NCBI GenBank assembly: GCA_001648575.1
Contig: LQXN01000065.1
Coordinates: 124,001-188,000, forward strand
DNA length: 64,000 nucleotides
Source of the DNA: Sutcliffiella horikoshii DSM 8719
Lineage (GTDB): Bacteria; Bacillota; Bacilli; Bacillales; Bacillaceae_I
Reading direction: 5' to 3'
The notes under the pieces are model-generated. The model was not told the origin of the DNA, did not search any database, and was given only the letters and a program-made list of their open reading frames with translations. Below are positions 8,379-59,242 of this stretch, in pieces (position 1 is the stretch's first letter; every line of letters begins with the position of its first letter). The position numbers were made by a program, and so were the translations under genes.

Positions 8379-9278
8379 ATGAGAGTCTGGCATAATTTAC
8401 GAAAAGATATAGTGGGCTGTGTTTCCCTCTTATTCATTTTAGGATTGCTGATTGCGGGAATATTTGCCCCGGTATTTGCCCCTTATGATCCTAATGAAGT
8501 GAATATGGCTTTACGCTATGCTTCCCCATCATTTTCACATTGGCTTGGGAATGACCATTTAGGCAGATGCATCCTCTCTAGAATTATCTATGGAATTAGA
8601 CCGAGTGTTCTATGGGTATTGGCAGTTCTTTTTGTTTCCGTTTTTATTGGCGGGGTCTTGGGCTTTTTAGCCGGTTATTTTAGAGGGAAAGTAGATATTG
8701 TCATCATGAGGCTTTGTGATATAATGCTCTCTTTTCCAGGTTATGTAATGGCACTTGCTGTCATTGGGATCCTGGGAGTTGGTTTGGAAAATATCCTGAT
8801 TGCCTTTGCGCTGATCAAGCGGGCTTGGTTTGCAAGGGTGATCCGCACGTCTGTCATGCAGTTCGTAGAGCTTGATTATATAAAGTTCGCCAAGGTTTCT
8901 GGAAGTGGAAACGGAAGGATTTTAAGAAAGCATATCTTGCCGGTAACATTTGCCGATATTACAGTCGTTGCAAGTGGTTCTATCGGATCGATGATTTTGC
9001 AGATCTCTGGGTTCTCTTTCCTGGGCTTGGGAATTCAGGCACCACATGCAGAGTGGGGGATGATGCTAAATGAGGCAAGGGAAGTGATGTTCATCAGACC
9101 AGAGATGATGCTCGCACCGGGGATTGCCATCGTACTTGTTGTCATGGCATTTAACTTTTTATCCGATTCCCTTCAAGTTGCCCTAGACCCCAAACTGGTC
9201 CGGATGAAAAATAAGAGGGTTTGGTGGAAGCGACAGAAAGCTAGTTTGCAAGCTAAAGAGGTGACCAACTACCAATGA
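8379..9278 (+). CDS. cntC: Metallophore ABC transporter permease CntC
   Basis: 299-residue DppC/NikC-type permease with six predicted helices. The EAA loop is at about 165-190 (DYIKFAKVSGSGNGRILRKHILP), and SFLGLGIQAPHAEWGMMLNEAR is the typical C-terminal signature. The start directly follows the stop of cntB, with AAAGGAG inside the upstream gene, so the two are translationally linked. Pairs with CntB. Confidence 0.85.
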   Translation: MRVWHNLRKDIVGCVSLLFILGLLIAGIFAPVFAPYDPNEVNMALRYASPSFSHWLGNDHLGRCILSRIIYGIRPSVLWVLAVLFVSVFIGGVLGFLAGYFRGKVDIVIMRLCDIMLSFPGYVMALAVIGILGVGLENILIAFALIKRAWFARVIRTSVMQFVELDYIKFAKVSGSGNGRILRKHILPVTFADITVVASGSIGSMILQISGFSFLGLGIQAPHAEWGMMLNEAREVMFIRPEMMLAPGIAIVLVVMAFNFLSDSLQVALDPKLVRMKNKRVWWKRQKASLQAKEVTNYQ

Positions 9279-10090
9279 ATCTATTAGAGGTACATAATTT
9301 ACAAGTTCAGGATACCATTTCAGGGAAGCTTCTTGTGAAAGGAAGCAGTTTTTCAGTGGGTGATGGAAACTGTCTCGCTATCGTGGGGGAGAGCGGAAGC
9401 GGTAAATCGGTGACAAGCAAAGCCATCATGCGTCTAAATAAGCCAGTCCTTCAGACAAAAGGAAGTGTCTTATTTAAAGGGGAGGAACTGACCCGGCTTT
9501 CAGATAAGGAAATGAGAAGAAGAAGAGGGAAAAGCATATGCATGATTATGCAAAATGGAATGAGTGCGTTTAACCCTACCAGTGTCATAGGAGTCCATCT
9601 CAGAGAGACGCTTTCTATGCACTTAGGTGTGACGAAGTCCCAGGCAGATGCGAAAATGATCCCAGCCCTTGAGCGGGTGATGATAAAAAATCCATCCGAC
9701 CTACTGGATAAATACCCCCACCAGCTCTCAGGTGGAATGCTGCAGCGTGTCATGATAGCCCTGGCGATCGTATTGGAACCGGATCTCATTATTGCGGATG
9801 AGCCGACAACCGCTTTAGACACGATATCACAGTATGAGGTGGTCGAAGAGTTTAAGAAGTTGCGCGAACGTTTGGGAACTTCCATGATCTTCATCTCACA
9901 TGATCTAGGTGTGGTGCAACGGATAGCAGAAAATGTCATCGTCATGAAGGATGGAGCAATCGTGGAAAGCGGGACCACCCAAAAAATTTTCAATGACGCG
10001 AATCATCCATACACGAAATACCTGGTGGCAACGAGACTTTCATTAAGTAATCATTTCAAAAAGATTATGGAGGGATCCAGTTGTTACTAG
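9275..10090 (+). CDS. cntD: Metallophore ABC transporter ATPase CntD
   Basis: 271-residue ATPase. Walker A GESGSGKS is at about 37-44, the Q-loop is in MIMQNGMSAFNP, the signature LSGGM sits around 149-153 and Walker B is LIIADEP. The Q-loop region and the C-terminus (NHFKKIMEG) match CntD more than NikD. It overlaps cntC by 4 nt (ATGA) and cntF by 10 nt, so the operon is tightly coupled. It hydrolyses ATP to drive import. Confidence 0.85.
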   Translation: MNLLEVHNLQVQDTISGKLLVKGSSFSVGDGNCLAIVGESGSGKSVTSKAIMRLNKPVLQTKGSVLFKGEELTRLSDKEMRRRRGKSICMIMQNGMSAFNPTSVIGVHLRETLSMHLGVTKSQADAKMIPALERVMIKNPSDLLDKYPHQLSGGMLQRVMIALAIVLEPDLIIADEPTTALDTISQYEVVEEFKKLRERLGTSMIFISHDLGVVQRIAENVIVMKDGAIVESGTTQKIFNDANHPYTKYLVATRLSLSNHFKKIMEGSSCY

Positions 10091-10824
10091 TAAAAGACGT
10101 AGAAAAATCGTATAAAAAAGGCGGATTATTTTCTAAGGAGAAACAAAAAGTCTTACATAAAGTCACGCTAGAATGCAGGGCTGGAGAATGTCTAGGCATC
10201 ATTGGAGAGAGTGGGAGCGGAAAATCCACACTCGGACGGATGATTCTTGGAGTGGAAAAACCTGACAGTGGGAGTGTTACACTTCAAGAGTTGCCGACCC
10301 ATTTAAGGAAAACGAGGCTTGGAAAAATCAGTGCCGTCTTTCAAGACTATAAATCTTCTATTAACCCATTCTTTACTGTAAAAGATGCCATCCTTGAACC
10401 ATTGCAGGTATTAGGAAGGAAAGATATAGGAGATGCGCGGCTGATGGATCTGTTAGAAAAGGTCGATCTTCCTGGCAACTATCTGAAAAAGTATCCACAC
10501 GAGTTATCGGGCGGGGAAGTACAACGTGTTTGTATAGCAAGGGCCATCGCAACAGAGCCTGCTTGTATCCTATTCGATGAAGCCATCAGCTCGTTGGATG
10601 TCTCCGTCCAAGTTCAGGTGCTGAATCTTTTAAAAGAATTAAAAAGCAACCACGACATGAGTTTCATCTTCATCACTCATGACATCCAAGCGGCAGCTTA
10701 TCTTTGCGACAGGATGATCATTTTCAAAGACGGTCAAATCGAAGAAACGGTTAGAACGCAAGATTTAGGCCAGGTCCAATCATCCTATGCAAAAAAACTA
10801 CTAGAGTCATTACTGACGATATAA
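10081..10824 (+). CDS. cntF: Metallophore ABC transporter ATPase CntF
   Basis: 247-residue second ATPase of the importer. Walker A GESGSGKST is at about 43-51, the signature is LSGGE, and Walker B is CILFDEAISSLD, where Ala replaces the usual Pro after DE. The switch histidine is in FITHD. It starts at TTG 10081 inside the end of cntD, with GGAGGG 6 nt upstream. It pairs with CntD as the heterodimeric motor. Confidence 0.85.
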   Translation: MLLVKDVEKSYKKGGLFSKEKQKVLHKVTLECRAGECLGIIGESGSGKSTLGRMILGVEKPDSGSVTLQELPTHLRKTRLGKISAVFQDYKSSINPFFTVKDAILEPLQVLGRKDIGDARLMDLLEKVDLPGNYLKKYPHELSGGEVQRVCIARAIATEPACILFDEAISSLDVSVQVQVLNLLKELKSNHDMSFIFITHDIQAAAYLCDRMIIFKDGQIEETVRTQDLGQVQSSYAKKLLESLLTI

Positions 10825-10836
10825 GGAGAGGGACAG

Positions 10837-11961
10837 ATGAAAGGCGCGTTATCTTGGCCCTTTATGCGGCTGTATATCCTGGTGCTCTTCTATTTCAGTG
10901 CCAATGCCATCTTAAATGTCATCATTCCTTTGCAAGGAAAAGCACTTGGAGCAACTAATACAACAATAGGACTCATTATGGGAGCCTATTTATTTACCAC
11001 GATGTTCCTCAGGCCATGGGCGGGATATTTAATCGCTCGATATGGGCCCATACCCATTTTACGGACCATTTTGGTTGTAAATGGAATAGCCTTGGTCTTA
11101 TATGCTGTTACTGGGCTTGGCGGATATGCATTTGCCAGGATCCTGCAGGGAGTCTGCACGGCTTTCTTTTCCATGGCGTTGCAGATCGGGATCATGGATG
11201 CACTTCCCGAAAAAGATCGCTCCCAAGGAATATCATTGTATTCCCTTTTTTCCTATATTCCCGGTATCGTGGGTCCGCTCTTGGCACTTGGGATTTGGCA
11301 AGAGGGAATGGGAACCTTCGGAATGGTCATGGTCACGCTGGCCATAGTTACAGGGATAATCGGTTTTACGGCTAAGGTAGGAGAAAAGCAAGAGGTAAAA
11401 GGAAGCGCCCCAACTTTAGGGATGGGAAAGGCAATACGTCAATTAGTAGCCAATTCAGACCTTACAAGAAGCTGCACATTAATGCTCTTCGGGTCGATTG
11501 TGTTTGGGGCGACGACCATCTTCATTCCGCTTTATGCACTGCAAGTCCCCAGTGGAAATGCAGGAATCTTTCTGATGTTGATGGCCGCCACGGTTGTCGT
11601 ATCACGCTTTACTTTACGTAAAAGCATACCATCAGATGGTAAATGGCATTCTACCTTTATGATAGGTACAATGCTATTACTCACAATAGGAACACTAAGT
11701 ATCAGCTATGCGGTAGAAGGTGGGGCTGGGTTCTTCTATTTTGGTGCCAACCCATCGCTCACAACGTATCTTAGCCTTGTTCTACCAAAGGCTAGTCGGA
11801 ATGTGTTATTAGGGCTCTTTATAGCATCGGCTGACTTAGGGGTGAGTATGGGAGGCGCTGTCATGGGGCCGGTTGCGGACTTAACTTCTTACTCGACCGT
11901 ATACCTGGTCTGTTCGGTGCTTGGGGGAATCATGGCAGTTGTGGCATACCGTCAAGGGTAG
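10837..11961 (+). CDS. cntE: Metallophore exporter CntE (MFS)
   Basis: 374-residue MFS protein beginning MKGALSWPFMRLYILVLFYFSANAIL, closely like the start of Staphylococcus CntE, which exports newly made staphylopine. It has about 11-12 helices and the motif FARILQGVCTAFFSM in helix 4. It follows cntF by 12 nt with its own AAGGAGAGGG site and ends the operon before a terminator. Its presence is notable because the biosynthesis genes cntKLM are not in the window: either they lie elsewhere in the genome, or the exporter clears imported metallophore. Confidence 0.85.
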   Translation: MKGALSWPFMRLYILVLFYFSANAILNVIIPLQGKALGATNTTIGLIMGAYLFTTMFLRPWAGYLIARYGPIPILRTILVVNGIALVLYAVTGLGGYAFARILQGVCTAFFSMALQIGIMDALPEKDRSQGISLYSLFSYIPGIVGPLLALGIWQEGMGTFGMVMVTLAIVTGIIGFTAKVGEKQEVKGSAPTLGMGKAIRQLVANSDLTRSCTLMLFGSIVFGATTIFIPLYALQVPSGNAGIFLMLMAATVVVSRFTLRKSIPSDGKWHSTFMIGTMLLLTIGTLSISYAVEGGAGFFYFGANPSLTTYLSLVLPKASRNVLLGLFIASADLGVSMGGAVMGPVADLTSYSTVYLVCSVLGGIMAVVAYRQG

Positions 11962-11963
11962 GT

Positions 11964-11997
11964 GGTCAAGGGGGACAGGTCCCCTTGACCGTTTTTT
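11964..11997 (+). terminator. Intrinsic terminator of the cnt operon
   Basis: GGTCAAGGGG (11964-11973) and CCCCTTGACC (11981-11990) form a perfect 10-bp stem followed by GTTTTTT. Its loop region GGGACAGGT is the same motif found in the REP-like hairpins elsewhere in the window. Confidence 0.9.
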
Positions 11998-12024
11998 GTT
12001 AGACGGACAGGCATCCCGATCTTT

Positions 12025-12579
12025 CTAATTTTTATACATTGTCAGCTTCTTATCTGCAGAAGTCCGCTCTCTCTTTGGTGGCACCTTTTCAAAGTATCCC
12101 ATATGCAAGAACCCGACAATCTTTTCTCCAGGCTGTACGCCTAAAATTGTATGGACCTTTGGATCGTATATATGTGGATTGGTTTTCCAGACAACGCCAA
12201 GCTTTTGTTCCCAGGCAAGCAGCTGGAAGTTCTGAATTAGCGAGCTGACCGCCCCAAAGTTTTCCTCCCATTGTTTTTGTCTCGGGTCTTCCTCCATAAC
12301 CACGATCAGAAAGGCAGCCGGCTGACTGAAATAATTCCTTCTATTTTCCTGCATCTCTGGTGGAAAGGTTTTGACCAGCTTTTCAACAAATCCTTCTTTC
12401 TCACTCGAAGAAACAAAAATGAACCGCCAAGGCTCTCTTAATCCATGGTTTGGTGCCCAGACTGCATCGTCTAGTAGTTCAAGTACGGTTTCCTGGGTCA
12501 CTTCTTTATCGGTATATCCAGCTTTTATAGAACGTCTCTCACGAATGGTTTGAGCTAAGGTTGATTTATTCTTTTCCAT
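12025..12579 (-). CDS. Nitroreductase-family flavoprotein, YfhC-like
   Basis: 184 residues beginning with the FMN-binding RERRSIKAGYTDKEV (about 13-27) and APNHGLREPWRFIF (42-55), hallmarks of single-domain nitroreductases, with a conserved IVGFLHMGYF near the end. It should reduce a quinone, nitro compound or flavin using NAD(P)H. A Fur box lies upstream, which fits Bacillus YfhC, reported as part of the Fur regulon; an iron-related reductase role is inferred. It is convergent with the cnt operon. Confidence 0.8.
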   Translation of the reverse strand: MEKNKSTLAQTIRERRSIKAGYTDKEVTQETVLELLDDAVWAPNHGLREPWRFIFVSSSEKEGFVEKLVKTFPPEMQENRRNYFSQPAAFLIVVMEEDPRQKQWEENFGAVSSLIQNFQLLAWEQKLGVVWKTNPHIYDPKVHTILGVQPGEKIVGFLHMGYFEKVPPKRERTSADKKLTMYKN

Positions 12580-12611
12580 TGGATTGTCTCCTTTTTAACC
12601 TTTTTTATCAT

Positions 12612-12630
12612 GAATGTGATTATCATTCTC
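12612..12630 (-). promoter_or_regulatory. Fur box upstream of the nitroreductase
   Basis: On the minus strand GAGAATGATAATCACATTC matches 15 of 19 positions of the Fur consensus GATAATGATAATCATTATC. It lies 33-51 nt upstream of the nitroreductase start, where it would overlap the promoter. Confidence 0.7.
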
Positions 12631-12782
12631 AATTACATTGTAGTATAGATTTTTATTTAATTCCATATCTATGGGAGAAAAGAAAAAATGTTCATTTAGA
12701 TAAGAGCGACTCATTAAAGAGAGTTGTAACTTTTTCCAGGTCCATTCGTAATTAATAGTAGAGAAAGAAAGGGGATCCACAC

Positions 12783-13313
12783 ATGTCAAAAAACATATAC
12801 ATAGTCAGGCATTGCCAAGCTGAAGGGCAACCACCAGAATCGCAGCTTACAGAAGAAGGATTCAAACAAGCTGAGGAGTTAGCCTTATTTTTTTCCCACA
12901 TACCAGTAGACCGAATTGTATCAAGCCCTTTCTTGCGAGCCATCCAAACTGTTAAACCATTAAGCAAAGAATGGAACATAAGCCTAGAGGTCGATGATCG
13001 CTTGGCTGAACGCACGCTCAGTTCCGTAGATTTACCAGACTGGATGAAAAAACTGGAAGCAACCTATGAAGATTTGGACCTGAAATTTGAAGGCGGGGAA
13101 TCCAGCAGAGATGCAATGGACCGGATCGTCTGCGTGGTAGAAGAAGCTTTTAAAAGTGACGCGGAAAATATCATTATCGTGACACACGGAAATATCATGT
13201 CGCTGCTGTTGAAAAACTATCAAGAGAGCTTTGGGTTCGAAGACTGGAAGAACTTAAGGAATCCAGATGTGTTTCTTTTGAAAAGAGGCGTGGTACCTTT
13301 CCGTCTCACTTAG
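12783..13313 (+). CDS. Histidine phosphatase family protein
   Basis: 176 residues. The phosphate-binding RHC motif is at 9-11 (catalytic His10), the second histidine is in VTHGN (His135), and the acid is probably Glu76 in LAERTLS. It is of the small phosphoglycerate-mutase-like type (PhoE or CobC relatives) that removes phosphate from small molecules; the substrate is unknown. Good AAAGGGG site. A relic of a second copy's C-terminus lies about 0.7 kb downstream. Confidence 0.8.
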   Translation: MSKNIYIVRHCQAEGQPPESQLTEEGFKQAEELALFFSHIPVDRIVSSPFLRAIQTVKPLSKEWNISLEVDDRLAERTLSSVDLPDWMKKLEATYEDLDLKFEGGESSRDAMDRIVCVVEEAFKSDAENIIIVTHGNIMSLLLKNYQESFGFEDWKNLRNPDVFLLKRGVVPFRLT

Positions 13314-54008: not shown

Positions 54009-54563
54009 ATGCAATATTACTATTATAAAAAAGGGAAAGAACAGAAATTTGCTGAGGGTGTGGGAAGTCACGACAAAAAGGAGAAGGACATTAATGTAGT
54101 TATCAATTGTGGAAACGGTGGTGGCGAAGAGGAAAGTGCAGCATTTCGTGCCGTAAACGGGGATGTTCAAACTTATGGAACACCAGATGAGTTTGTTAAG
54201 GTGTTATTTCAGGTCGAGCAGTTTGATATAGGAAATGTATATAATGCGAACACATCTACATTTGTGCCAACAGAGGAGGGTATTTACTTTGTTGGGGGAA
54301 CCGTGACGTTTTTCCCGAACGACTCTACAATTCCATACCGTGCGCGGGTGGAAATCAGGGTGAATGGAGTAAGTGTAGCAGCAGATAATGATTTCTTTAA
54401 TAATATTGAATCATTTCCATATGTGAATGCAATCAACACATCCACTGTTTTACAACTTCAAGCAGGTGACCTCGTCGAAATCTTCCTCACAAGCACCGCA
54501 CCAGGAATAATTGACCGGAACGTTTCTGGAATTAGCACTCGTTTTGAAGCTTCGAAATTCTAG
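54009..54563 (+). CDS. C1q/TNF-like jelly-roll protein, possibly spore surface
   Basis: 184 residues. After a basic, tyrosine-rich start (MQYYYYKKGKEQK) and a glycine-rich stretch (NCGNGGGEEE), residues 44-184 form a C1q-like domain: AFRAVNGDVQTYGTPDEFVKVLFQ, FVPTEEGIYFVGGTVTFFP, LQAGDLVEIFLTS. This is the fold of the BclA tip and of other exosporium proteins, but there are no collagen-like GXX repeats here. No signal peptide, as for spore-coat proteins. Spore role is inferred. Confidence 0.7.
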   Translation: MQYYYYKKGKEQKFAEGVGSHDKKEKDINVVINCGNGGGEEESAAFRAVNGDVQTYGTPDEFVKVLFQVEQFDIGNVYNANTSTFVPTEEGIYFVGGTVTFFPNDSTIPYRARVEIRVNGVSVAADNDFFNNIESFPYVNAINTSTVLQLQAGDLVEIFLTSTAPGIIDRNVSGISTRFEASKF

Positions 54564-54736: not shown

Positions 54737-56110
54737 ATGGATCTGGTAACAGAAAAGAAGGAGTTAATCTATAAAACGGTATTAGATCATATGCATGAAG
54801 GGGTAATCTTAATAGATACTTCTACGAAAGTGGTTTATGTGAATGATTCGTATTATCAAATTCTAGGCATAAAAAATAAGAGTATCATTGGGGAATTTTT
54901 GGATGATATACAACCAGGTACGAATGTTAGTAAGGTAATTAAAAATGGGAAGCCCCTGATTAATGTGGAGTTTACATTTATTCAAACGAATGTAAGGGTG
55001 GTAGCGAATATATTACCTATTTTTAACGAGGATAATAGTTTATTTGGGGCGATTAGTGTATTCCGTGATGTTACCGAGGTAAGGAATTTAATTCAGGAAA
55101 TTGAACATTTAAAAGGCTATACGGAATATTTGAAGGAGAGGTTAGAGGTAAATTCAAATGCGGCATTCTCCTCTATGGTAGGGGAGCATCCTTCTATCAT
55201 TCAAGTAAAGGAGAAGGTTAAGAAAGTAGCAAATACAGATACAACTGTTCTCGTTACAGGGGAGAGCGGTACAGGAAAAGAAGTAGTTGCCACTATTATA
55301 CATGAGGCTAGCAATCGAAAGAATAGACCGTTAATTAAAGTGAACTGTGCAGCAATTCCAGAGTCATTGCTAGAGAGTGAGTTTTTTGGTTATGCGGATG
55401 GAGCTTTTACAGGTTCCAAACGGGGCGGGAAGCTAGGGAAGTTTGAATTGGCCAATAAAGGAACCATATTCCTAGACGAAGTTGGTGACATGAAGCCTAA
55501 TCTGCAGGCAAAGCTTTTACGGGTTTTACAAGAAAAGAAAATTGAAAGGGTTGGAGGAGAAGCGCCGATTGATGTGGATGTGCGGATCATTGCTGCTACA
55601 AATTGTAACTTATATGAAAAGGTAAAGAAAAAAGAATTTCGTGAGGATCTTTACTATCGGTTATTCGTTTTTCCGATTGAAGTCCCAGCTCTACGGAAAA
55701 GAAAAACAGATATTTTAACATTAGCCATTAAGTTTTTAGAAGAGTTCTCCCTGAAGTATAATAAGCAGCTTTCCTTCAGTGCAGATGTTACCAAGCTTCT
55801 TATCAGCTATGAATGGCCGGGGAATGTAAGAGAATTAAAGAATGTGGTAGAACATGCAGTGGTTATGAGCGAGCAAAGTGGAAGAATAATTGTTGCTAAC
55901 TTTCCATCATATCTTAAGGAAATTCGAAGTGGAGGACAACAGGATGGAATAGATCATTTGCATCTCTACAGAAATTTCGCCCAAATTGAGAAAAGTGCGA
56001 TGGAGGAGGCATTGATAGTGACAAAATATAATCGTTCGGAAGCAATGAAGCTCTTAGGTATGAGCAGAAATAAATTTTACAAAAAAATTAAGGAATATCA
56101 ACTAGATTGA
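54737..56110 (+). CDS. Sigma-54-dependent activator (PAS-AAA-Fis)
   Basis: 457 residues: PAS domain (about 10-115, VILIDTSTKVVYVNDSYY), AAA+ domain (about 148-380) with Walker A GESGTGKE (175-182), Walker B TIFLDEVGDM, and the sigma-54 contact loop GAFTGS in place of the usual GAFTGA (222-227), then a Fis helix-turn-helix (NRSEAMKLLGMSRNKFYKKIKEY). The PAS domain should sense a small molecule. It should activate the sigma-54 promoter 130 nt downstream. ATG 54737 follows GGAGGGG. Confidence 0.9.
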   Translation: MDLVTEKKELIYKTVLDHMHEGVILIDTSTKVVYVNDSYYQILGIKNKSIIGEFLDDIQPGTNVSKVIKNGKPLINVEFTFIQTNVRVVANILPIFNEDNSLFGAISVFRDVTEVRNLIQEIEHLKGYTEYLKERLEVNSNAAFSSMVGEHPSIIQVKEKVKKVANTDTTVLVTGESGTGKEVVATIIHEASNRKNRPLIKVNCAAIPESLLESEFFGYADGAFTGSKRGGKLGKFELANKGTIFLDEVGDMKPNLQAKLLRVLQEKKIERVGGEAPIDVDVRIIAATNCNLYEKVKKKEFREDLYYRLFVFPIEVPALRKRKTDILTLAIKFLEEFSLKYNKQLSFSADVTKLLISYEWPGNVRELKNVVEHAVVMSEQSGRIIVANFPSYLKEIRSGGQQDGIDHLHLYRNFAQIEKSAMEEALIVTKYNRSEAMKLLGMSRNKFYKKIKEYQLD

Positions 56111-56129
56111 TTGTATTTTTTTGTTACGG

Positions 56130-56171
56130 ATTGTATCTAAAAGATACAATAAAACGCTTTCATTGTATCAT
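56130..56171. promoter_or_regulatory. Enhancer palindrome for the sigma-54 activator
   Basis: ATTGTATCT (56130-56138), AAA, AGATACAAT (56142-56150) is a perfect inverted repeat; a second half-site ATTGTATCATTGTA follows at 56162. It lies about 100 bp upstream of the sigma-54 promoter, the normal place for an enhancer. Confidence 0.75.
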
Positions 56172-56240
56172 TGTAAAACAAAATAACTGAATATTTTTAT
56201 AATAGAGAGAAAAAGTTCATAAATAAAAGCATTTAAATCT

Positions 56241-56256
56241 TGGCACGATTATTGCA
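56241..56256 (+). promoter_or_regulatory. Sigma-54 (SigL) promoter of the HMG-CoA reductase operon
   Basis: TGGCACGATTATTGCA has the invariant GG and GC with exact -24/-12 spacing (TGGCAC, 5 nt, TTGCA). It is 28 nt upstream of the reductase start. Confidence 0.9.
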
Positions 56257-56284
56257 ATAAGATAAATATCGAAAGGAGGAGCTT

Positions 56285-57541
56285 ATGAAATCAAGAGTAG
56301 AGAAATTTCATTTGTATACGATGGAGGAACGAGTTAACTGGGTGAAAAATTTCGTGGGATTAACGCAGGAGGATTTGCGTTTATATGAAAACCATGGGGC
56401 ATTAGGAAAGGAATTAACTGAATTACTTATTGAAAATACAATTGGGGTTATGGAAATTCCTATTGGGTTGGCGATGAACTTTATTATAAACGACAAGGAA
56501 ATAGTGGTTCCGATGGCTGTAGAAGAGTCTTCCGTAGTTGCTGCGGCAAGTAATGGTGCAAGATTGGCCAGGAGGTTTGGAGGCTTTCATACAACGGTGG
56601 ATGAATCAATCATGTTCTCACAGATTCAGGTGCTTAATTGTCAGGATCCTTACGGGGCAAAGTTTAGAGTTTTGGAAAAGAAAGAGGAGATTCTAAAGCT
56701 AGCAAATGAACAGGACCCGACCTTGGTAAGGTTAGGCGGCGGGGCAAAAGAAATGGAAGTCCGGGTTATTGGACAGAAAAATAACCTGATGCTAATTCTT
56801 CACTTAATCGTAAATACACTGGATGCAATGGGAGCTAATGCAGCAAATACAATGGCCGAAAAAGTCTCGCCATTAATAGAAGAGATTACAGGTGGAACTG
56901 TTAATTTAAGAATCATTTCCAACTTTGCAGATAAGCGTTTGGCCCGAACACGTTGTGTAATTCATAAAGAGGATATTGGTGGGGAGGAAGTCGTCGATAG
57001 AATTGTTTCGGCTTATGAGTTTGCGGCATTAGATCCTTATCGAGCAGCAACCCATAACAAAGGGATAATGAACGGAATTTCTGCAGTTATTTTAGCGACT
57101 GGTAATGATACTAGAGCCATCGAAGCCGGAGCTCACGTGTATGCAAGTAGAAACGGTCAGTACACTTCTTTATCTCACTGGGAGAAAAATAAAGAAGGTC
57201 ACTTAGTAGGTACATTGGAATTACCCTTGGCTGTAGGGATTATTGGGGGAACAACCGCACTTCATCCTAAAGCCAAAACCAACCTTAAAATAATGAATGT
57301 AGAATCTGCCCGACAATTAGCTGAAATCACTGTTTCAGTTGGTTTAGCACAGAATCTTACAGCATTAAAGGCGCTCTCTACAGAAGGGGTGCAAAAAGGA
57401 CATATGAAACTACACGCGAAAAATATTGCAATCATGGCTGGAGCAACCGGGGAAAAAATTGATCTGGTAGCAAACAAGATCGTAGAAGCAGGTAAAGTAA
57501 GGGTGGATTTTGCGAAAGAAGTCTTATCACAAACGCCCTAA
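56285..57541 (+). CDS. mvaA: Class II (degradative-type) HMG-CoA reductase
   Basis: 418 residues of the class II fold, as in Pseudomonas mevalonii MvaA. Catalytic residues are visible: Glu80 or Glu81 (PMAVEESSVVAAAS), Lys259 (THNKGIMNG), Asp275 (ATGNDTRAIEAG) and the C-terminal flap His377 (MKLHAKNIA). The dinucleotide segment DAMGANAANT (180-189) is present. In bacilli, which use the DXP route for isoprenoids, the enzyme should run backwards, oxidizing mevalonate and CoA to HMG-CoA. The sigma-54 promoter and the transporter genes behind it support catabolism. Confidence 0.9.
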   Translation: MKSRVEKFHLYTMEERVNWVKNFVGLTQEDLRLYENHGALGKELTELLIENTIGVMEIPIGLAMNFIINDKEIVVPMAVEESSVVAAASNGARLARRFGGFHTTVDESIMFSQIQVLNCQDPYGAKFRVLEKKEEILKLANEQDPTLVRLGGGAKEMEVRVIGQKNNLMLILHLIVNTLDAMGANAANTMAEKVSPLIEEITGGTVNLRIISNFADKRLARTRCVIHKEDIGGEEVVDRIVSAYEFAALDPYRAATHNKGIMNGISAVILATGNDTRAIEAGAHVYASRNGQYTSLSHWEKNKEGHLVGTLELPLAVGIIGGTTALHPKAKTNLKIMNVESARQLAEITVSVGLAQNLTALKALSTEGVQKGHMKLHAKNIAIMAGATGEKIDLVANKIVEAGKVRVDFAKEVLSQTP

Positions 57542-57565
57542 GTGGAAGGAGAGTGAAGTGAAAGT

Positions 57566-57844
57566 ATGGCAAACTTAAAACCGGAAGCAGGCACTAATAC
57601 ATCTCCAAAAGTAAAAACGGAAAAGGAAACCATTGAGATATGGGGGGATAATGTCAATATTAAAGATTTGCTCTTTGCTATTATTATTTGTGTTGTCACT
57701 ACTTTAGGTGGTTACTTAATTGCACCGGCAGAGCCGCCTAAGCCGCTGGTCTTTGGACTTGTGGGAGGGGTGATCGGTTTCACAGTTTCAGCTATTCTGA
57801 TCAAGCCGAAAAGAACCATCACATATAGTGGGGAGGAGGAATAA
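57566..57844 (+). CDS. Small two-helix membrane protein of the transporter
   Basis: 92 residues: a polar start, then helices at about 34-52 and 58-78 (LLFAIIICVVTTLGGYLIAPAEPPKP, FGLVGGVIGFTVSAILI). It sits 24 nt after the reductase and its stop overlaps the start of the large permease. By position and topology it could be the small (TctB-like) subunit, though it is smaller than typical TctB, which has four helices. Confidence 0.7.
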   Translation: MANLKPEAGTNTSPKVKTEKETIEIWGDNVNIKDLLFAIIICVVTTLGGYLIAPAEPPKPLVFGLVGGVIGFTVSAILIKPKRTITYSGEEE

Positions 57845-59202
57845 TGGATCCGATATTAATTATACAAATGATCATTGCGGCCATTATTGCAGCATCTCTT
57901 TATACATTGATAGGGATTGCTCCGGGAACGGATGAAACCGCAGTATTGGCACCTGTTACACTTGTACTAGTATTAACCGGCTTCCCACCAGAGGTTGTAT
58001 TAGCCTTCTTTATGTCGGCGATTGTTGCAAAGAAACTTACAGACTCCATACCTGTAGCTGTCGCGGGTATACCAGGTGGCGTGATGTCAGCGCCGATGGT
58101 CGATCATGCAATGGTGTTAAAGAAGTACGGCAGTCCAGATGTGAGTATTAGAAAAATGGCTTCTGGTTCCGTGATCGGGACACTAGTAACAGTACCATTG
58201 AGTATTTTTTTTGCTAGCGCCATCATACCAATCGGCGATTATATAAAGGATTATGCAAATGTACTCTTCTTTGCTGGAGCCATTTTTTTAGCCCTAATTA
58301 GTAAAAATAAGTGGTTGGCTTTAACATTAATCGTTCCCTTTGCATTGTTAATACAGGGTTTAAGGCATTTATATTGGGGTATTGGAGCTGTTCCAGAAGG
58401 CACAAATGTATTTGTATCCTTTTTCCTGGGAATTACGATTGGTCCTGTCATTTATAGTTTATTTCAATTAATGAATAAGAGCTTTAGAGAGAAGCTTCAG
58501 CCATTAGGCAATAAACAGATTACAATGATTAAATCAGAAAAAATAAAAGGCTTTCCAAATCCATTTAAAATCCTGGATAAAAAAGAAGTCGCAACTGCAA
58601 GTGTTGCATCATTCTTTGGATCGATCACTTTTTTTATGAGTCCAGTAGGAATGACAATATTTATTGGGGAGACTTTAACAAGTAAAATCAAAGATCCAAT
58701 AAAAAGAGCTTCGAGAGCCATTTCAAGCATGGACGGTTTAACAAATGCAGCGTATATAGCGGGAGTTCTTATTCCTTTAATAGCTATTGGAGTTCCATTG
58801 TCTCCAATGGCCATCGGACCTGCAAATGCGCTCTTTAATGCACCACCGGTATATACCGTGGAAAACAATATTCATCATATATTAAGTACATCCCAAATTG
58901 TGGTGGCAACCATCATTGGGGTAATAGTAGCCCTTGCCATCACTTTCTATGTCACCATTAAATACTCCCAGCAAATATGTGCTTTTGTCTTTAAATATGT
59001 GCCCCATGAAGCGATGTTAGCACTATTTGTTGGTCTAGTCGTTATGCTTGCATTCATGGATGCAGGATTGATTAATATTTTTGGAGTGCTGCTCATTGGA
59101 TTAGTAGCTGGTCTTCTACACCGTTGGGGAATTAATTACGGAATACAATTTATGATCCTATATGCTGCACCATGGATTGTAACTAAGTTAATGGGCATGT
59201 AA
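57844..59202 (+). CDS. TctA-like transporter permease
   Basis: 452 residues with about 11-12 helices. The N-terminal signature YTLIGIAPGTDETAVLAPVTLVL and, later, AVAGIPGGVMSAPMVDHAMVL resembles the TctA subunit of tripartite tricarboxylate transporters, and a second such loop occurs around 310-330 (IAIGVPLSPMAIGPANALF). No TctC-type binding protein follows, so the system seems binding-protein-independent or uses one encoded elsewhere. Mevalonate or a related carboxylate is the likely substrate, inferred from the operon. Confidence 0.75.
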   Translation: MDPILIIQMIIAAIIAASLYTLIGIAPGTDETAVLAPVTLVLVLTGFPPEVVLAFFMSAIVAKKLTDSIPVAVAGIPGGVMSAPMVDHAMVLKKYGSPDVSIRKMASGSVIGTLVTVPLSIFFASAIIPIGDYIKDYANVLFFAGAIFLALISKNKWLALTLIVPFALLIQGLRHLYWGIGAVPEGTNVFVSFFLGITIGPVIYSLFQLMNKSFREKLQPLGNKQITMIKSEKIKGFPNPFKILDKKEVATASVASFFGSITFFMSPVGMTIFIGETLTSKIKDPIKRASRAISSMDGLTNAAYIAGVLIPLIAIGVPLSPMAIGPANALFNAPPVYTVENNIHHILSTSQIVVATIIGVIVALAITFYVTIKYSQQICAFVFKYVPHEAMLALFVGLVVMLAFMDAGLINIFGVLLIGLVAGLLHRWGINYGIQFMILYAAPWIVTKLMGM

Positions 59203-59204
59203 TA

Positions 59205-59242
59205 CAAAAAAGATTGGGAGAATAACCTCTCAATCTTTTTTA
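59205..59242 (+). terminator. Terminator of the HMG-CoA reductase operon
   Basis: AAAAAAGATTGGGAG and CTCTCAATCTTTTTT. The following 300 nt up to the germination operon (59243-59541) hold no gene; a weak CTACCTCC/GTGGTAGG hairpin near 59334-59355 is the only structure seen. Confidence 0.85.

Follow-up and report, generated by a model that had tools for sequence, protein, structure and literature searches.

A putative mevalonate catabolic operon in Sutcliffiella horikoshii and a candidate mevalonate importer shared with salvage-type loci of Bacillales

A 64,000-nucleotide stretch of the genome of Sutcliffiella horikoshii DSM 8719 (contig LQXN01000065.1, positions 124,001 to 188,000 of the forward strand; hereafter the window, whose own numbering is used throughout) carries on its + strand a three-gene operon encoding a 3-hydroxy-3-methylglutaryl-coenzyme A (HMG-CoA) reductase (HMGR), a 92-amino-acid protein and a TctA-like permease, preceded by the gene of a sigma-54-dependent activator. 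This locus is very probably a substrate-inducible operon for the catabolism of mevalonate. The genes, the promoter and palindrome between them, a complete route in the genome, the lack of detected biosynthetic partners and the recurrence of the gene block are read directly from the sequence, and from these we infer the substrate, the direction of the reaction and the inducer. That mevalonate can be degraded with the aid of a class II HMGR and HMG-CoA lyase is already known; the new part is the putative importer and its double use, in which the 92-amino-acid protein and its TctA-like partner probably form an unnamed family of dedicated mevalonate importers, serving catabolism beside HMGR and salvage beside kinases.

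The Locus and Its Proposed Function

The locus comprises the following features:

54737-56110, + strand: sigma-54-dependent activator, 457 amino acids, with a PAS sensor, an AAA+ domain and a Fis-type helix-turn-helix (Pfam, NCBIfam)
56130-56150, no strand: perfect palindrome ATTGTATC-N5-GATACAAT, proposed upstream activating site (pattern scan)
56162-56182, + strand: weak, degenerate second copy of the palindrome, with three mismatches and one good half-site
56240-56257, + strand: exact -24/-12 (sigma-54) promoter TTGGCACGATTATTGCAA (consensus scan, 0 mismatches)
56285-57541, + strand: class II HMGR with an NAD-type Asp144 (Pfam, NCBIfam, alignment)
57566-57844, + strand: 92-amino-acid two-helix protein, proposed small subunit of the importer (predicted structure, no family match)
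57844-59202, + strand: divergent TctA-family permease, proposed mevalonate importer (PF01970)
59206-59241, + strand: terminator-like hairpin with a T-run, closing the three-gene operon (fold, -17.6 kcal/mol)

An earlier note on this DNA had recognized the activator, palindrome, promoter, HMGR, small protein and permease, and all of these parts were recovered, at coordinates that had been right within a few bases. In the proposed mechanism, the activator would sense mevalonate or a derivative of it, bind the palindrome and, together with the RpoN/SigL sigma factor, open the -24/-12 promoter. Mevalonate would enter through the joint action of the permease and the two-helix protein, and the reductase, running oxidatively, would convert it with CoA and 2 NAD+ to HMG-CoA. 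An HMG-CoA lyase encoded elsewhere would then split HMG-CoA into acetyl-CoA and acetoacetate, and a 3-oxoacid CoA-transferase with a thiolase would turn the acetoacetate into two acetyl-CoA.

The Reductase and the Isoprenoid Route of the Host

The window HMGR matched PF00368 (9.5e-109) and the NCBIfam family TIGR00532 (437.9 bits against a cut-off of 259.95). Its Glu81, Lys259, Asp275 and His373 occupy what we take, from the Pseudomonas mevalonii enzyme, to be the catalytic positions, and among sequences of solved structures it matched 1QAX (E 1.5e-133), presumably the P. mevalonii HMGR itself. In the available excerpts of a study of the Ruegeria pomeroyi HMGR, the residue determining NAD(H) use is D154, 63 residues after E91, and the enzyme was measured in both directions, i.e., it is reversible (PMC12292504). 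Asp144 of the window enzyme aligns with this D154, and the spacing of 63 residues from the catalytic Glu is the same in both proteins. Residues and phylogeny were compared across 102 HMGRs, including four groups defined by their neighbours. The residue at this position was Asp in all 21 TctA-linked and all six HMGRs linked to tripartite ATP-independent periplasmic (TRAP) transporters, Tyr or Phe in all 11 kinase-linked enzymes, and Lys, His or Arg in all seven synthase-type enzymes of Bacillales.

In the HMGR tree, the four neighbour labels clustered beyond all 200 shuffles, and HMGRs of the sampled order nested with those of Oceanobacillus and Virgibacillus. The window enzyme and that of another Bacillales genome (G244, locus L111) were sisters with a support of 100, outside two other clades, that of the kinase-linked Bacillales enzymes (99) and that of the synthase-type ones (100). 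Several branches, including that of L111, are long, and the deeper placement is therefore unsure. A 62% match of the window HMGR to a sequence from an Asgard metagenome-assembled genome led to an archaeal origin being considered as one conceivable history of this gene.

The remainder of the genome agrees with a degradative role. The earlier note had assumed that the host makes isoprenoids by the 1-deoxy-D-xylulose 5-phosphate (DXP) route, also called the methylerythritol phosphate (MEP) route, and DXR and IspE of this route are indeed encoded. A profile search revealed no HMG-CoA synthase in the host genome; the model used matched in four of 14 control genomes. Nor did the host yield a mevalonate kinase, its three GHMP kinases being IspE, galactokinase (GalK) and homoserine kinase (ThrB). 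Thus, the window reductase has no detected biosynthetic partner, and a biosynthetic role was rejected on this ground. A complete mevalonate pathway, which the earlier note had considered incompatible with its proposal, was looked for in the genome and not found. One HMG-CoA lyase, predicted by the same note to lie elsewhere in the genome, scored over the family cut-off on a separate contig (C48); its best matches among PDB sequences, 1YDO and 2CW6, are both HMG-CoA lyases, and its gene is divergent from a thiolase and 3-oxoacid CoA-transferase pair of the ScoAB type. The proposal of mevalonate catabolism is thereby supported by the reductase, the lyase elsewhere and the lack of detected biosynthetic partners.

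Promoter, Palindrome and Activator

The promoter TTGGCACGATTATTGCAA ends 27 nucleotides ahead of the HMGR ATG and is the sole site within two mismatches across the 64-kb window. Since shuffled versions of the window averaged 3.96 sites at that looseness, it is the exactness and the place of this promoter that carry weight. The palindrome is perfect and is followed by the loose copy at 56162 (three mismatches); two matches of such looseness were reached in 12 of 100 shuffles. Across the 4.68-Mb genome, one further site was found within two mismatches (it has two), and the reversed control pattern gave none. A palindrome regulon was considered and set aside, as that other site sits inside an open reading frame and none occurs at the lyase gene.

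The activator displayed, by Pfam, a PAS domain, Sigma54_activat (3.9e-71), an AAA lid and a Fis-type HTH_8, together with the motifs GESGTGKE and GAFTGS; the latter forms the sigma-54 contact loop (55400-55417), for which relatives carry GAFTGA or GSFTGA. The control by SigL proposed earlier is consistent with these findings, given that a -24/-12 promoter, an activator with Walker A and the GAFTGS loop, and rpoN are all present in the genome. Relatives of the activator were found at the same place in L111 (52% identical) and in Clostridium bovifaecis (L051, 41%).

As a separate observation, a Sporomusaceae locus (L021:445-9242) holds a related sigma-54 activator and a -24/-12 consensus site at 2355 ahead of an HMGR, preceded by genes that we take to encode a permease like those of the major facilitator superfamily and proteins resembling aconitase X and AtuA.

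By eye, AGGAGGGG precedes the activator ATG at 54737, and Shine-Dalgarno-like sequences stand ahead of the genes of the locus. The last two genes overlap, with the permease gene starting within the stop codon of the gene before it. The hairpin at 59206-59241 was not among the results of a separate consensus terminator scan. As for the surroundings, the gene just 5′ of the activator (54009-54563) shows a weak BclA_C/C1q similarity, below the cut-off, and possibly encodes a spore-surface protein, and a GerA-type germination gene lies downstream of the locus.

The Small Protein and the TctA-like Permease

The 92-amino-acid protein had no Pfam or NCBIfam match, and no Pfam family was reached even at E 1. 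In an alignment of 22 members, one glycine and the residues P-K-R that follow the second helix were invariant, and most members have a W-x-D-x-V stretch ahead of the first. AlphaFold2 predicted two helices of transmembrane length (32-52 and 59-78; mean predicted local distance difference test score, pLDDT, 78). Because of its constant place before TctA, the protein is likely the importer's small subunit and would take the part of TctB, with no recognizable kinship to it. A relationship to TctB was tried and rejected: the 22 members weakly matched 28 Pfam families, with no TctB among the 25 shown, and the model has two helices only.

The permease itself matched PF01970 (TctA) with 90.7 bits against a cut-off of 28.9. 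A sequence search among solved structures gave no relative of it, and it was assigned to no fold, since a search with its model (mean pLDDT 86.2) gave no matches at E 0.001. In the TctA tree, the window permease grouped with HMGR-linked permeases, weakly (86/59), and the split between salvage and catabolic permeases received 77/82; both this split and the root are weak because the branch of the canonical-TctA outgroup is very long.

Recurrence of the Gene Block in Bacillales and Clostridium

HMGR was sought in an order sample of 397 Bacillales genomes, in which it occurred in 19 genomes at 22 places. In six of these places it is accompanied by the small protein and TctA (the window, G244, G314, G186, G298 and G375). 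Seven others carry mevalonate kinases, and seven a synthase-like gene (cluster C2); HMG-CoA synthase was found in all four C2-type genomes searched (G113, G212, G309 and G352) of the seven. The remaining two, G024 and G152, have a gene with XRE and cupin domains and no TctA; the copy in G152 is truncated, with what appear to be transposase-like genes after it. Three genomes (G186, G298 and G375) possess two HMGRs each, one kinase-linked and one TctA-linked, and HMG-CoA synthase is present in them. In G375 (L121), the order is HMGR, lyase, small protein and TctA.

The gene order of the window locus, which the earlier note had suggested seeking in other Bacillaceae, recurs in a single other Bacillales genome, G244, which also has a related activator; its locus L111 comprises activator, inverted repeat, -24/-12-like site, HMGR, small protein and TctA. 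The inverted repeat at the place of the palindrome differs, however, reading TGTATAC...GTATACA. In C. bovifaecis (L051), lyase, activator, HMGR, a 116-amino-acid protein and TctA (41%) lie together. Elements similar to the -24/-12 promoter, with one substitution, precede HMGR in both L111 and L051; in the latter, another stands ahead of the lyase gene.

The Permease Beside Mevalonate Kinases

The permease also occurs in a second setting. Matches to it were found in 33 of the 397 order genomes: 24 at at least 58% identity, of which six are the HMGR-linked ones and 18 are others, four at about 40%, and five that are short or weak (G044, G053, G113, G198 and G309). The 18 loci not linked to HMGR (L165-L182, 58-72% identity) and three of the four distant ones were examined, G317 being left out. 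Genes for mevalonate kinase (MVK), diphosphomevalonate decarboxylase (MVD) and phosphomevalonate kinase (PMK) lie beside TctA in 15 of the 18 (L165-L174 and L176-L180), ten of which also have a type 2 isopentenyl diphosphate (IPP) isomerase; these families were assigned over the cut-off for L165 only, the other loci being assigned by BLAST to L165. Kinases are lacking beside TctA in L181 and L182, and in L175, whose contig stops at TctA. The small protein is present in 14 of the 15 kinase-linked loci; in L173 the gene call did not yield it. The distant loci are mixed: L186 adjoins four lower-pathway genes, and L183 and L184 do not.

These genomes mostly seem unable to make mevalonate. In the same sample, 14 of the 15 do not belong to the HMGR-positive genomes, the exception being G352, which has HMGR and HMG-CoA synthase elsewhere in its genome. 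All 14 of these salvage-type genomes have DXR, and HMG-CoA synthase was absent from every one, although the completeness of G191 is only 87%. The kinase-linked TctA loci in MEP-route Bacillales are thus a probable mevalonate salvage operon. Because the small protein and permease are common to two opposite mevalonate-consuming pathways, mostly in genomes seemingly unable to make mevalonate, the pair is best read as a mevalonate importer.

Another substrate may be envisaged for the permease. It belongs to TctA, whose studied members carry tricarboxylates, and it could import some other hydroxy- or branched carboxylic acid, such as a tricarboxylate or 3-hydroxy-3-methylglutarate, with the link to the reductase being indirect; two of the 18 close relatives (L181 and L182) have no adjoining mevalonate gene. 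However, the near relatives adjoin either MVK, PMK and MVD, in genomes without detected HMGR and synthase, or HMGR, and mevalonate is the compound common to both, which makes this alternative unlikely.

The closest relative of the window permease by identity (L165, 72%) stands in a salvage-type operon, which would favour salvage in the window host as well, with imported mevalonate feeding isoprenoid synthesis. Against this, no mevalonate kinase was found in the host genome, and the window permease sides with the HMGR-linked permeases in the tree, albeit weakly as stated above; salvage in S. horikoshii is therefore extremely unlikely, and catabolism remains the preferred interpretation there.

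Short TctA remnants, some with stops, were also observed (G113:C13:204852-205293, G309:C13:70868-71011 and G044:C47:223714-224127). Since G113 and G309 have HMG-CoA synthase in addition to HMGR, import may have been lost where synthesis is present.

Relatives in Proteobacteria and on Plasmids

A wider search by HMGR gave 574 confirmed matches, the best 80 of which supplied the named loci compared here. A TctA relative was found in 15 of these best 80, one of them that of Clostridium, and a TRAP transporter (clusters C22/C23) in six; HMGR-TRAP is a second arrangement in Proteobacteria. Among 72,556 plasmid records searched for relatives of the window TctA at E 1e-5, six hold one, and HMGR adjoins it in all six. 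According to the gene tables of two Roseomonas records, Rhizobium etli and Lichenicola, HMGR, a hypothetical protein, a tripartite tricarboxylate transporter (TTT) permease and HMG-CoA lyase occur together, with the lyase of the R. etli plasmid on the other side of the block; the two Burkholderia records are megabase replicons in which the adjacency of HMGR and TctA comes from coordinates alone. A lyase lies in or beside the block in L121, L033, L034, L071 and four plasmid records. The reading of the operon in the earlier note as a Gram-positive development of its own, with another type of transporter, is not supported, since HMGR, small protein and TctA are also combined in many Proteobacteria, often with the lyase.

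These relatives bear on the direction of transport. HMGR of this type is reversible, judging from the excerpts cited above (PMC12292504), and transport direction is unreadable from sequence, so that a synthetic reductase with a permease exporting mevalonate, as overflow or for signalling, might be proposed. The host has no HMG-CoA synthase, however, and such a scheme would need HMG-CoA from elsewhere, e.g., from leucine breakdown. Moreover, export would be senseless in the kinase-linked operons of genomes seemingly unable to make mevalonate, and several relatives have the lyase within the block or next to it. Export is thus very unlikely, and import for catabolism is favoured.

A further observation concerns a protein of the SMP-30/gluconolactonase type that adjoins TctA in L070 (12166-13188, Pfam shown) and in L067 (11262-12293, same cluster). 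It may be a candidate mevalonolactonase, which would fit the hydrolysis of mevalonolactone.

Regulators by Lineage

Regulation of the block appears to vary among lineages. The inverted repeat TTCAAC-N3-GTTGAA precedes HMGR in all six Bacillales loci comprising the four activator-less TctA-linked and the two XRE-only ones; one of the six sites has a mismatch, and that of L112 overlaps the called HMGR start, which is probably called too far upstream. Ten whole control loci held no exact copy and two with one mismatch (window 47388 and L116 15603), neither before HMGR. The gene of the XRE-cupin cluster adjoins the block in four of the six (domains shown for L121). In Proteobacteria, divergent proteins of the MocR type occur frequently; their cluster (C1), assigned from the GntR and aminotransferase domains shown for one member (L050), is represented in 21 of the best 80 of the 574 confirmed HMGR matches. 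Four Pseudomonas loci (L033, L034, L070 and L071) have a divergent gene of this cluster, and no BLAST relative of the window activator was found in them. One metabolic module would thus be governed by three kinds of regulator according to lineage, namely by proteins of the sigma-54 activator, XRE-cupin or MocR type, each presumably binding to its sites.

The L112 locus (8760-12986) holds HMGR, the XRE-cupin gene and two exact TTCAAC-N3-GTTGAA sites, the second of which lies before another gene cluster. That cluster looks to us hydantoinase-like, with presumed CoA-transferase and enoyl-CoA hydratase-like genes, and is possibly another route for mevalonate or HMG-CoA.

Observations Against the Catabolic Interpretation

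Several findings weigh against a mevalonate catabolic operon. First, TIGR00532 was passed by all seven further HMGRs tested, three of them of the kinase or synthase type, and a pass is therefore no proof of direction; the "degradative" label of this family was discarded as evidence. Second, Asp at the position of Asp144 also occurs in 53 of the 57 HMGRs outside the four groups, many of them archaeal and probably biosynthetic, and by itself it was likewise discarded as proof of catabolism. Third, the region of the host lyase has no -24/-12 site or palindrome, and the lower route is thus not visibly co-regulated. Fourth, the one-substitution scan for -24/-12 sites gave 12 hits from 20 sources in 394,757 bases, at unrelated places too, which makes such a site alone weak evidence. 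Relatives of the activator are also few, being restricted among the loci searched to L111, L051 and L021, and the trait is rare in the lineage, as HMGR occurs in only one of 18 sampled genomes of the window's family. Finally, neither TctB nor TctC is recognizable in the window operon, and in the relative L024 a canonical TctA adjoins the block on the opposite strand, next to two genes that we take to be TctB and TctC.

Significance

The proposed importer would give bacterial mevalonate uptake a testable genetic identity. External feeding is a possible explanation for Bacillales keeping the lower mevalonate pathway without detected HMG-CoA synthase and reductase, and, if this is true, many Bacillales would use free mevalonate as a nutrient and share it as a precursor of isoprenoids. 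The importers and a candidate mevalonate-responsive promoter would also be on offer for isoprenoid engineering. Among open-licence papers in PubMed Central, no description was found of a gene for mevalonate import in bacteria, of Bacillales that salvage mevalonate or of mevalonate catabolism in Gram-positive bacteria, and subscription papers may hold one; in the available excerpts of a 2026 review of the diversity of bacterial isoprenoid pathways, the terms "salvage" and "mevalonate uptake" do not occur (PMC13001223).

Comparison with Known Systems

The window activator resembles the PrdR-type PAS-sigma-54 activators, which gave its best NCBIfam score (NF041552, PrdR); at 469.6 bits, far below the cut-off of 795, it is not PrdR.

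Canonical TctA proteins act with TctB and the binding protein TctC. The window permease shares membership of PF01970 with the permeases of TctABC transporters, but it is divergent by score, the canonical TctA near the L024 block reaching 471.4 bits against 90.7, and both a TctC gene and a recognizable TctB are missing between the activator and the terminator.

In P. mevalonii, mvaAB reportedly accomplishes mevalonate catabolism by HMGR and HMG-CoA lyase; nothing usable was found in the open-licence literature on the transporter of this species or on its regulator, which the earlier note gives as a sigma-54 activator, MvaR. The class II HMGR and the expected route via HMG-CoA lyase are the same in the window, whereas the lyase lies outside the operon, a sigma-54 activator is linked to it and the transporter pair is encoded within it.

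The Proteobacterial operons of HMGR, small protein, TctA and lyase share gene block and order with the window. Their permease is about 36-40% identical to that of the window, their small protein is longer (about 150-195 amino acids as called), many of them have the lyase within or next to the block, and the regulator is a divergent MocR-type protein rather than a sigma-54 activator. In the HMGR-TRAP operons of Ruegeria pomeroyi, Acidovorax, Comamonas and others, for which a solved-structure search with the TRAP binding protein gave no ligand information, HMGR adjoins a dedicated carboxylate-type transporter, as it does in the window, and a DctPQM TRAP transporter with a binding protein replaces the small protein and TctA.

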